A stretch of 64,000 nt of DNA from NCBI RefSeq assembly GCF_017656375.1, contig NZ_JACDOB010000004.1:1-64000 (forward strand). The letters are read 5' to 3'. Each line of letters starts with the position of its first letter. Position 1 is the first letter of the stretch. The notes under the pieces were generated by a model, which was not told the origin of the DNA, made no database searches, and worked only from the letters and a program-made list of their open reading frames with translations. A program made the position numbers and the translations under genes. This document shows positions 8,095 through 42,873 of the stretch, piece by piece. This DNA is from Thermovirga sp. (GTDB taxonomy: Bacteria; Synergistota; Synergistia; Synergistales; Thermovirgaceae).

Positions 8095-9357
8095 CTAACC
8101 TATAGGCACATTGGTATCAATATATGAAATATGTCTTTGCTCATCCTTTCTCGCAACTCCATAGAAGAAAACAATCAAACCAACCCTGCCCCAAAACATC
8201 AACAAAATCAGTAAGAATTTACCTAAGCCAGAAAGCCCTTGCGTTATTCCGGTCGAAAGGCCAACTGTACCTAAAGCAGAAGTCACCTCAAAAAGAATCT
8301 CTCTAAAAGAATAAGGTTCCATTATTCCTAATATAAAGGAAGAAAGAAATATGGTCACCATATAAACTATAACAAGAGACACGGCTTTTCTTAAGATGCT
8401 ATAAGGTATCCTTCTGCTGGAGAAAATTATGTCTTCCCTTTGCAAAATTTCGCTGTATAAGGACAATAACAAAACCCCAAATGTGGTTGTCTTTATGCCT
8501 CCTCCCGTAGAGCCAGGAGAAGCTCCTATTATCATCAGTAAAATCAACACAAAAGATCCCACGGGAGAAATTTTCCCTATATCCACTGTGTTGAATCCAG
8601 CAGTACGGGCTGAAACAGACTGGAATAAAGCATCCCAAAAACTTTGAAATACGGAGACATCATGTCTCCACACAATGTGCTCTGTCAAAAATAAGGCCAA
8701 GCAACCTATTACTATTAGCAAAAACGTGACAGAAAAGACTAGCTTACAGTAAGGTGACATTCGCTTATTGTGGTATTCTATGCCCACTAACTCCATTAGA
8801 GGAACAAATCCTATCCCGCCCAATATTATAAGCAACATTATAATCAAAGTAATAGATGGGTCTTCGCGAAAAGGCACAAGGTTATCCGGAAAGGTTGAGA
8901 AACCAGCGTTACAAAAAGCGCTTATGCTATGAAAAATGGCGTGGCCAAGGGCATCTAACGGCTCGTAATAATCCAACAGCTCCCCAAAAAGCAACAATGC
9001 TCCAAAAAGCTCTATGGCAAAAGTCATCTTCACTATATGCCCTAACAGCCTTATTACCCCCGAAACTCCATCAAGACCTAGGCTACTTGAAAGGCAGTAC
9101 CTATGTTGAAGACTCACCCGCGAACCACGCAATATAAATAAAGATGTAAAGGCAGTCATAACACCTAGACCGCCAAGCTGCATTAAGACAACAATCAAGC
9201 ACTTAGAGTAAAAACTCAAATCAGTGGCTGTATTTACAACAACCAATCCGGTAACACAAACCGCAGATGTGACAGTAAAAAGAGAATCAATAAAATTCAA
9301 TGGTCTATAACTGTGGTTCAAAATCCAAAGAAGGAGGGTTCCTGACACAATCAACAT
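8095..9357 (-). CDS. ktrB: KtrB/TrkH-type potassium transporter membrane subunit
   Basis: About 420 residues of hydrophobic protein with four pore-loop repeats typical of the SKT superfamily, including VCVTGLVVV and TAGFNTVDIG. It is the membrane pore that works with KtrA in K+ uptake. The ATG at 9357 has a good GGAGGG site. However, conserved coding sequence continues upstream in frame: NPKKFYGKLKPERIIVGGFL aligns with the start of KtrB proteins such as the one from Bacillus subtilis. The only upstream candidate adjoining a ribosome site is an ATA at 9418-9420, overlapping the rplT stop. The start is therefore unresolved. Confidence 0.93.
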   Translation of the reverse strand: MLIVSGTLLLWILNHSYRPLNFIDSLFTVTSAVCVTGLVVVNTATDLSFYSKCLIVVLMQLGGLGVMTAFTSLFILRGSRVSLQHRYCLSSSLGLDGVSGVIRLLGHIVKMTFAIELFGALLLFGELLDYYEPLDALGHAIFHSISAFCNAGFSTFPDNLVPFREDPSITLIIMLLIILGGIGFVPLMELVGIEYHNKRMSPYCKLVFSVTFLLIVIGCLALFLTEHIVWRHDVSVFQSFWDALFQSVSARTAGFNTVDIGKISPVGSFVLILLMIIGASPGSTGGGIKTTTFGVLLLSLYSEILQREDIIFSSRRIPYSILRKAVSLVIVYMVTIFLSSFILGIMEPYSFREILFEVTSALGTVGLSTGITQGLSGLGKFLLILLMFWGRVGLIVFFYGVARKDEQRHISYIDTNVPIG

Positions 9358-9416
9358 CAGAAACCCTCCGACAATAATCCTTTCTGGTTTTAATTTACCG
9401 TAAAACTTTTTGGGAT

Positions 9417-9776
9417 TTATTGCTCAAGCGCCTCCTTGGCCTTCTCCACCATCACTTTGAATGCTTGCATATCATTCACCGCCAAGTCAGCAAGCATCTT
9501 TCTGTTAACTTGAATGCCCGCTCTTTTCAAGCCGTTTATAAAATTACTATAAGAAATATCATTCATGCGGGCCGCTGCGCTAATTCTCGTAACCCATAGC
9601 CTTCTAAAATCTCTTTTCCTTGCTCTTCTGTCCTTGTAGGCACTAGCCAAAGCATGCAAGGACGCTTCTTTTGCTCTTTTATAAGTGTTCTTCTTTCTAC
9701 CCCAAAAACCCTTAGTTATTTTAAAAAGTTTTTTGCGCTTTTTGTCGCTCGCAGATCCGCCCTTCACTCGCGGCAT
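9417..9776 (-). CDS. rplT: 50S ribosomal protein L20
   Basis: 119 residues, the normal L20 length, with the conserved basic N-terminus (KITKGFWGRKKNTYKRAKEA) and the C-terminal RKMLADLAVND region. L20 binds 23S rRNA early in 50S assembly and in several bacteria represses its own operon by binding the mRNA leader. It follows rpmI in the conserved infC-rpmI-rplT order. Its last codons contain an AAGGAGG sequence that may serve as the ribosome site of ktrB. Confidence 0.99.
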   Translation of the reverse strand: MPRVKGGSASDKKRKKLFKITKGFWGRKKNTYKRAKEASLHALASAYKDRRARKRDFRRLWVTRISAAARMNDISYSNFINGLKRAGIQVNRKMLADLAVNDMQAFKVMVEKAKEALEQ

Positions 9777-10087: not shown

Positions 10088-10702
10088 CTATTTATTGTTT
10101 TCTACATTACCCTCATCGTTATTGGCTTTAGAAGGCTCTTTGTTACTGGCTTTAGAAGGCTCTTTCTTCTTGTTTTTCTGACTCTGTGGCAAAGGCGCTA
10201 GCATTGCACGCATGTAACGTCCTTCCATTCTAGGCTCCATCTCTACCTTTCCTACATCCTCACAATCTCTTATAACCCTCTCCAATACTTCCCTACCTTT
10301 ATCCAAGAAGGCCATCTCTCTACCCCTGAAGAAAACAGCAACCTTAACCCTATGTCCAGCAGCCAAGAAATTCCTTATAGCTTTTGTCTTAAACTCGTAA
10401 TCGTGCTGGTCAATTTTCGGGCGCATTTTCATCTCTTTTACAGTTTGTGATTTACTCTTTTTCCTAGCGTCTTTCTCCTTTTTCTGCAACTGATACTTAT
10501 ATTTACCATAATCCAATATCCTACAGACCGGGGGTGAAGCCTGCGGCGCCACTTCCACTAAATCAAGCTCTCTCTCTGCTGCAATATCAAGAGCCTCGCT
10601 CAGCGGGACCACGCCCAGCTTCACACCTTTGTCATCAATTAACAATACCTCTTTTGCTCTTATCTCATTATTGACCCTTGGTTCATCAACTTTTTTTGCT
10701 AT
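10088..10702 (-). CDS. infC: translation initiation factor IF-3, AUA start codon
   Basis: IF-3 binds the 30S subunit, prevents premature 50S joining and proofreads start codons. The ORF track begins at an internal TTG (10645), but the conserved N-terminus VNNEIRAKEVLLIDDKG extends 19 codons upstream to an ATA at 10700-10702, six bases after a perfect GGAGGTGA. No ATG, GTG or TTG exists in that stretch. Rare starts on infC are a known self-regulation device (AUU in E. coli), so ATA is taken as the start, giving 204 residues. The C-terminus carries a non-conserved Lys/Asn/Glu/Ser-rich tail with an eight-residue duplication. Confidence 0.95.
   Translation of the reverse strand: MAKKVDEPRVNNEIRAKEVLLIDDKGVKLGVVPLSEALDIAAERELDLVEVAPQASPPVCRILDYGKYKYQLQKKEKDARKKSKSQTVKEMKMRPKIDQHDYEFKTKAIRNFLAAGHRVKVAVFFRGREMAFLDKGREVLERVIRDCEDVGKVEMEPRMEGRYMRAMLAPLPQSQKNKKKEPSKASNKEPSKANNDEGNVENNK
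10123..10165 (-). repeat. two-copy 19-bp direct repeat in the infC tail
   Basis: The 19-mer TGGCTTTAGAAGGCTCTTT occurs at 10123-10141 and again at 10147-10165. The 24-bp period keeps the reading frame and duplicates KEPSKA in the IF-3 tail. Confidence 0.9.
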
Positions 10703-35945: not shown

Positions 35946-36146
35946 TTCTAAAAATCAACCTTTCCGCAAACGATATACTTCTTTACTATATTACCGCAGC
36001 TATATAATTTATAAAAGCAATATATTTAAAGTGTCTTACCTGCCTATCACAGTAACAGCTGCCATTTTGTTATAATAATCTGACCTTATGCATTTTTCAT
36101 CCTAATAAGCAAGGAGTGGTGCCTTATTTTTCTCCTTTCTGCTTTT

Positions 36147-37490
36147 GTGGTCGTTATGTTCTTTGTGCATCTTGGGGCTAAATCCAGCAGCCATACCAAG
36201 CATGAAGATTATTCTCTAGCTGGCAGAAAGTCCTCTGCCACATTGGTGTCTGGAATTCTATTGGGAGCCCTCGTAGGTGGAGCCTCAACTGTAGGTACGG
36301 TACAAATGGCCTATGCATATGGCCTTTCTGCCTGGTGGTTCACTTTAGGAGGAGGTATTGGGTGTTTGGTCCTCGGTTTATTCTTTGCTGTACCTTTAAG
36401 AAGTTCTGGCTTAGAAACCATTACTCAATTTCTGGCAGAAAAATATGGGCACCCAACGGCTAAAGTTTCCATGTGGGCTTCGGTCATGGGAACTTTTATC
36501 TCAGTTGTAGCACAATTTCTGGCCGGAGCAGCAATGCTCCGAAGCATTATTCCAGCAAACGACTGGATAATAATGTTCTTATTTTCTTTGATTATCCTGG
36601 CCTTCATATTCTTGGGAGGCCTCAAAAGCTATAGCAAAATAGGAGTATATAAAATAGCCCTACTTTACGGAATACTATTGCTATGCTTTTTGGTGTCCTT
36701 GAAGGCCCTGGGTGATTTTGGCCAGATTTGGCGTACATTGCCACGCAGGCCTTTCTTCTCACTGTTCGGCAATGGCGTCGGAAAAGGCCTGAATGCAGGG
36801 GTCTCTCTTGTGGTTGGGGTTTTATGCACACAAATATATATTCAAGCTATTTATTCCTCTTCCTCCCCCAAAACTGCGAAAAAGGGCGCACTGATTGCTG
36901 CCTTACTAATGCCCCCACTAGGGCTTTTGGGAATATGGATAGGCCTTTATCTGCGAAGCTCTGGCATAAACATACAGCCATCAGAAGCCCTTCCTTATTT
37001 TATACACAACTATTTCCACCCCGCTTTGGCTGGAGCAATCTGGGCCGGCATACTCATAACGGTCGTTGGAACTGCTGCAGGCTTAGCACTGGGTATGGCA
37101 ACAAATATCGTCTCGGATTTCATTATCCCTTTGCAGTCATCAAAAACATACAACACCTTAAGCCTTAACAGGATAACTGTATTAGTAGTCATCTTAGGTG
37201 CTGCTCTTATTGCCGTTGTAGGCAAAAGCTCCATGATACTGGAGTGGAGCTATCTAAGCATGGGATTAAGAGGAGCCGGAACATTCTTTCCCCTCGTAAT
37301 AGGGATCCTAAAACCTGGCATGTTGCCCTCTAGCTGGGCTTTTGCCTCCAGCATTCTCGGGTTGTCAACCACTCTACTCTGGCCCTTAACGAACCTCCCC
37401 CTAAAGCCTCTCTTTGCAGGGCTCGGGGCCTCAGCCTTGATAACTTTGGTAGGCTCAATAAGCAATGTTGTCAAGAAAAAGAGGTGGTAG
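36147..37490 (+). CDS. sodium:solute symporter (SSS family)
   Basis: At least 447 residues, about 12-13 membrane segments. The family stretch EDYSLAGRKSSATLVSGILLG follows the first helix, and the second helix begins VGGASTVGTVQMAYAYGLSA. Members use Na+ to import sugars, proline, pantothenate, acetate and others; substrate unknown. The track GTG at 36147 has no ribosome site and cuts the first helix. The frame stays open upstream, and AAGGAG at 36111-36116 sits nine bases before an ATT at 36126, a possible non-canonical start. Confidence 0.9.
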   Translation: MVVMFFVHLGAKSSSHTKHEDYSLAGRKSSATLVSGILLGALVGGASTVGTVQMAYAYGLSAWWFTLGGGIGCLVLGLFFAVPLRSSGLETITQFLAEKYGHPTAKVSMWASVMGTFISVVAQFLAGAAMLRSIIPANDWIIMFLFSLIILAFIFLGGLKSYSKIGVYKIALLYGILLLCFLVSLKALGDFGQIWRTLPRRPFFSLFGNGVGKGLNAGVSLVVGVLCTQIYIQAIYSSSSPKTAKKGALIAALLMPPLGLLGIWIGLYLRSSGINIQPSEALPYFIHNYFHPALAGAIWAGILITVVGTAAGLALGMATNIVSDFIIPLQSSKTYNTLSLNRITVLVVILGAALIAVVGKSSMILEWSYLSMGLRGAGTFFPLVIGILKPGMLPSSWAFASSILGLSTTLLWPLTNLPLKPLFAGLGASALITLVGSISNVVKKKRW

Positions 37491-42100: not shown

Positions 42101-42873
42101 TGTCGTCCTATATTCTGGAGCTCGAAAACGTAAACAAATTCTTCGGCGGAGTTCATGCTGTTAACGATATAACATTCTCCCTTAAAAAGGGAGAGCTGGC
42201 GGGTCTCATAGGGCCTAATGGCGCCGGTAAAACCACCATTTTTAATCTCATAACTGGTGTATATCCCTGCGATAGTGGACATATAACTTTCAGAGGTGAA
42301 GACATAACAGGCCTTAAAACCTATGAAGTAATTAAAAAAGGTATAGCCAGAACATTCCAAAACCTCAGACTCTTCCCCAGATCTAGTGCTCTTGAAAACG
42401 TAATGACAGCCTGTCAACAACACTACAATTACAGCTTCCTGGAAGCTATAACTCACCTCGGAAGGTGGAAATCTACCGAAAGAGATATCATGATGGAAAG
42501 TTTAGAACTTTTGGAAAAAGTGGGACTGGCCGATAGAGCCTATCAAGCTGCAGGAACTTTGCCTTATGGGCATCAAAGAAGACTGGAAATAGCTAGAGCC
42601 TTAGCCTTGAGACCTGACCTTTTATTGCTTGATGAGCCTGCCGCAGGTATGAACCCTGAAGAAGTTCAGGAACTCAACATACTTATAAAAGATATACACA
42701 AAACTTTTGACCTCACCATTCTGGTTATAGAACACCACATGGAGCTTGTTATGGAGATATGCCCCCATGTGATATGCATCAATTTCGGAGCCAAGATAGC
42801 CGAGGGCACACCTCATGAAGTCCAAAATCACCCAGAGGTTCTTCGGGCATATCTTGGAGAGGAGGTGAAATAA
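42100..42873 (+). CDS. livG: branched-chain amino-acid ABC transporter ATPase LivG
   Basis: 257 residues from the ATG at 42100, eight bases after GGAGGG. Walker A GPNGAGKTT, an atypical signature region LPYGHQRRLEIARALA (LivG proteins often have YGQQR), Walker B LLLLDEPAAGMNP. The C-terminal BCA_ABC_TP extension RAYLGEE is present. Provides ATP hydrolysis with LivF. Confidence 0.95.
   Translation: MSSYILELENVNKFFGGVHAVNDITFSLKKGELAGLIGPNGAGKTTIFNLITGVYPCDSGHITFRGEDITGLKTYEVIKKGIARTFQNLRLFPRSSALENVMTACQQHYNYSFLEAITHLGRWKSTERDIMMESLELLEKVGLADRAYQAAGTLPYGHQRRLEIARALALRPDLLLLDEPAAGMNPEEVQELNILIKDIHKTFDLTILVIEHHMELVMEICPHVICINFGAKIAEGTPHEVQNHPEVLRAYLGEEVK

Follow-up and report, generated by a model that had tools for sequence, protein, structure and literature searches.

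A sodium:solute symporter gene of Thermovirga sp. that probably starts at AUU

Where does translation of a sodium:solute symporter gene begin if its first ATG, GTG or TTG lies inside helix 1? The question arises in the window, by which we mean the whole 64,000-nt stretch analysed here, from contig 4 of the 1.80-Mb, 85-contig draft genome of Thermovirga sp. The first-pass annotation had pointed out that the GTG at 36147 leaves just 11 residues of helix 1 and lacks a ribosome site, and it proposed an ATT codon as the start instead. We confirm both points: the residues left are VVVMFFVHLGA, and the sequence before the GTG holds no purine-rich site. AUU and AUA starts are regarded as great rarities, known for infC and a few other genes, and gene finders usually consider only ATG, GTG and TTG. 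One known AUU-start gene outside the translation-factor set is pcnB of E. coli. The features discussed below are collected in Table 1.

Table 1. Positions of the symporter gene, its start region and the companion genes (window positions unless a locus is given).
Feature	Position	Strand	Remarks
Sodium:solute symporter family gene	36126..37490	+	454 aa counted from ATT; PF00474, E 2e-13
Shine-Dalgarno site AAGGAG	36111..36116	+	identical in sister species, inside AGCAAGGAGTG
Proposed start codon ATT (AUU)	36126..36128	+	ATA in sister species, same column
GTG, first canonical codon, would-be annotated start	36147..36149	+	judged internal; no Shine-Dalgarno site; 10 residues before helix-1 glycine
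Extended -10 promoter element TGnTATAAT	36068..36076	+	box CATTTTGnTATAATAATC conserved with sister species
infC (IF3), ATA start at 10702	10091..10702	-	PF00707, PF05198
trkH, ATA start at 9420	8098..9420	-	PF02386; overlaps rplT stop TAA (ATAA, 9417-9420)
rplT (ribosomal protein L20)	9417-9776	-	L20 match
phoH (PhoH), ATA/ATT start	L059:17148	-	outside window; both species of genus
wecG-family gene, ATA start	L090:13840	-	outside window; both species of genus

The gene belongs to family PF00474, its profile match of 50.3 bits exceeding the curated cut-off of 22.8; its product would be a putative sodium-coupled transporter. Orthologues at E values below 1e-100 are present in 31 of the 41 genomes of the order. 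When named genomes were searched with the single sequence, no matches were returned; an alignment query of the same protein did give matches, and the relatives found in this way are Synergistota. The nearest solved structures are choline transporters of weak similarity (E about 2e-7), none of them close. The reading frame is open through the TAG at 37488-37490, and a RadA-like gene with zinc ribbon, AAA and ChlI domains lies divergently on the minus strand.

Upstream, the frame is closed by the TGA at 36081-36083, and it holds no ATG, GTG or TTG between this stop and the GTG at 36147. As the first-pass annotation had noted, the AAGGAG motif stands before an in-frame ATT, with a 9-nt spacer (36111-36116 to 36126). 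The extended -10 box predicts a transcript beginning near 36083, so that a start upstream of the TGA would probably fall outside the message. A possible fold of the leader (36110-36150) in both species of the genus, with GGAG paired to a run of pyrimidines within codons 3-6, counts against an AUU start, although its z-scores of -1.4 and -1.9 are not significant.

The sister species (G001), the sole other genome of the genus compared, has a symporter that is 77% identical at the protein level. Its leader reads AGCAAGGAGTGATGAATTATATTTCC, in which two in-frame TGA codons directly precede ATT ATA. The ATA matches the ATT at 36126 in column and in spacing (9 in both), with the caveat that the adjacent ATT of the sister species, at spacing 6, could also serve as a start. 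Within the otherwise diverged intergenic region, AGCAAGGAGTG and the promoter box CATTTTGnTATAATAATC stand out as islands of identity between the two species. The first canonical codon of the sister gene is a TTG aligned with the GTG at 36147. Because these two codons are both canonical and occupy the same column, one may ask whether translation starts there without a Shine-Dalgarno site, with a shortened helix 1 and only incidental similarity further upstream. We regard this as improbable: neither species has a ribosome site for this position, helix 1 would be cut to half its length, and the conserved site upstream would serve no purpose. Furthermore, the bias of substitutions towards third codon positions begins at the ATT and not at the GTG, four of the five base differences in the interval between the two falling on third positions.

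Orthologous N-termini argue in the same direction. Helix 1 contains an invariant glycine, which is residue 17 if counted from the ATT; the ATT and the ATA of the sister species thus lie exactly 17 residues before it, whereas the GTG and TTG would lie at 10. Across some 40 orthologues from Synergistota, canonical starts are found 17-22 residues before this glycine, with peaks at 17 and 19, and several genera have an ATG at exactly 17. The alignment that had been suggested as a check on the AUU proposal hence places orthologue starts at the ATT column or about two residues upstream of it, 7-12 residues further upstream than the GTG, and in none of the about 40 is position 10 the evident start. 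A point against the AUU reading is that the symporters of other genera of the family start with ATG.

Two further explanations do without an AUU start. In the first, translation would begin out of frame at the GTG at 36119, which is an ATG at the identical position in the sister species and thus canonical in both, two bases after AAGGAG, and would enter the symporter frame by a +1 frameshift. This is very improbable, as neither genome has more starts than background at 2-6 bases from AAGGAG, in contrast to those 8-11 bases after it; no shared slippery motif is seen in the two species, and the out-of-frame peptides (VPYFSPFCFCGRYVLCASWG followed by a stop in the window, MNYISSFRFIGYPFF in the sister species) do not resemble the orthologues. 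In the second, the gene would be decaying, and the ATT would reflect either an error of sequencing or the recent loss of its start codon. The window genome is indeed a draft, but a second, independent genome likewise has no canonical start, the Shine-Dalgarno site and the promoter are kept in both species, and both carry an uninterrupted frame of about 450 codons, with 50 synonymous versus 23 non-synonymous codon changes in the first 112 aligned codons after the GTG. We consider error or decay highly unlikely as well.

A genome-scale comparison was made between 864 kb of the window genome (about half of it) and 1.2 Mb of the sister species, which gave 545 ortholog pairs. After all filters, 190 conserved canonical starts were left, with 54 at a spacing of 9, 38 at 8 and 35 at 10 bases; the nine-base spacer of the symporter is therefore the modal spacing of conserved canonical starts in the genus. 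The scan bore out the expectation of further such cases, in that all genuine genes without a canonical start have an ATA or ATT at normal Shine-Dalgarno spacing. Five genes combine protein conservation upstream of every canonical start with an ATA or ATT at spacing 9-11 (window genome/sister species): infC (ATA/ATA), trkH (ATA/ATA), the symporter (ATT/ATA), phoH (ATA/ATT) and a gene for a wecG-family glycosyltransferase (ATA/ATA). Four of them passed the filter for a conserved Shine-Dalgarno site, and trkH was found by a scan for N-terminal homology. The symporter is indeed the third gene of the window with an AUA or AUU start, the others being infC (10702) and trkH (9420), both on the minus strand; no further case with a conserved site was found in the 64,000 nt.

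Among the nine filtered pairs without a nearby canonical codon, four have ATA or ATT in both genomes at that spacing, against an expectation of 3.8% from interior columns (P about 2e-4, or about 0.003 without infC, the textbook example among the four); given the small numbers and the filters of our own choosing, we offer this statistic as support, not as proof. The remaining five pairs are false positives, either because a real canonical start follows within a few codons or because the frame is antisense. When the codons following Shine-Dalgarno motifs were counted regardless of homology, no clear ATA/ATT signal emerged, which indicates that such starts are rare and not general.

Several candidates were rejected on inspection: pheT has an ATG downstream and nearly invariant DNA upstream, the candidate at 42870 of the window has a TTG two codons on, and a coaE-like gene, rpsM and others have canonical starts nearby. 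The N-terminal homology scan also returned the programmed frameshift of prfB and antisense ORFs as false positives. For a membrane-protein gene in L059 (G000:C10:13678, minus strand), the two species share the Shine-Dalgarno site, but it is followed by ATA here and by TTG in the sister species; with a GTG two codons on, this case is ambiguous. At L064:1869-2453 (minus strand), a membrane-protein gene has directly before its first GTG a stretch of about 38 bases that is nearly identical in the two species and may represent either a leader or promoter or the N-terminus.

The companion genes differ in how widely the unusual codon is kept. infC starts with ATA, not ATT, after a Shine-Dalgarno site in every genome of the order that is readable there (L191-L220). 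For trkH, 21 of 29 relatives have a non-canonical start (19 ATA and 2 ATC). In 13 of the 14 loci in which L20 was recognised, the ATA shares bases with the stop codon of rplT, giving ATAA or ATAG, and the conservation of this codon may in part be due to the stop codon; most of the trkH genes overlapping the rplT stop have no other start close by. In the operon infC-rpmI-rplT-trkH, both the first and the last gene would consequently start with AUA. The ATA/ATT starts of phoH and the wecG-family gene are restricted to this genus, relatives of other genera having canonical starts.

The start site at AUU 36126 itself is well supported by the Shine-Dalgarno site, the AUA of the sister species, the fit of the N-terminus and the lack of a canonical alternative, all of which are features read from sequence. 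That translation starts there, behind a short leader, is very probable in our view; a low, IF3-dependent output would be the simplest reading. According to this proposal, the extended -10 promoter would give rise to a leader of about 43 nt, in which AAGGAG would position the ribosome at the AUU. Initiator fMet-tRNA would then read AUU by imperfect pairing, and IF3, by rejecting AUU-type codons, would keep initiation low, as in S. aureus, where AUU and AUA starts give about 10% of AUG output (PMC13009471). Little transporter would thus be made, and its output would presumably follow the IF3 level, alongside that of infC, trkH, phoH and the wecG-family gene. IF3 control of AUU and AUA codons in this organism is suggested by analogy. 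Aligned to E. coli IF3, the IF3 of the window genome keeps Arg99, 116, 131, 133, 147 and 168, residues which we take to matter for start-codon discrimination, and has Phe in place of Arg129. No altered IF3 was found by this alignment, the protein being an ordinary IF3, nor was any unusual initiator seen when about half the genome was scanned for tRNAs, all Met calls having a CAU anticodon.

Such starts have precedents. A non-canonical infC start with repression by IF3 is established for AUU in E. coli and ATC in Streptomyces (PMC5472188), and S. aureus infC uses AUA (PMC13009471). The symporter shares with infC an IF3-discriminated codon, a strong Shine-Dalgarno site at normal spacing and the absence of a canonical start. 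Unlike infC, it does not belong to the translation machinery, so the self-feedback of infC would not apply, and its control by IF3 is a prediction. Closer parallels are cvfC1 (AUU), ccpN (AUA) and citZ (AUA) of S. aureus, likewise non-infC genes with AUU or AUA behind a strong Shine-Dalgarno site; their start positions come from ribosome profiling and their output from reporter measurements, ccpN reaching up to 30% of AUG output in rich medium, and the starts of cvfC1 and ccpN are conserved among relatives (PMC13009471). The symporter start differs from these in being derived from comparison only and in having a six-base Shine-Dalgarno site, not an extended motif. The stress sigma factor gene sigR of Streptomyces, for which IF3 repression was demonstrated, is also a non-infC gene with an IF3-discriminated start, though its codon is GTC and the gene is of another type (PMC5472188). 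With pcnB the symporter has in common an AUU start outside the translation factors, the genes being otherwise unrelated.

IF3-sensitive AUU and AUA starts are therefore well established already, and the symporter adds one gene. More surprising are how many such genes the genus has and that trkH keeps AUA across the order. It is conceivable, if rather doubtful, that the genus, and to some extent all of the order Synergistales, has a small AUA/AUU-start regulon set jointly by the IF3 level, comprising infC, trkH, the symporter, phoH, the wecG-family gene and more, with AUA at both ends of infC-rpmI-rplT-trkH and AUAA/AUAG coupling trkH to L20. With the genes named here one can ask whether a group of transporters and other genes is controlled by the level of IF3. 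At least five such genes among the 545 compared, together with the AUA kept across the order at infC and mostly at trkH, suggest that AUU and AUA starts are under-counted because of the restriction of most gene finders to three codons; standard gene finders would truncate such genes, and the N-termini of the proteins concerned are corrected here.

In another genus (g10), the symporter has no ATG, GTG or TTG near its start, and a CTG at 19 stands behind GGAGGTG (loci L016, L017, L023 and L024). The CTG thus seems to be a weak start that this gene acquired independently.
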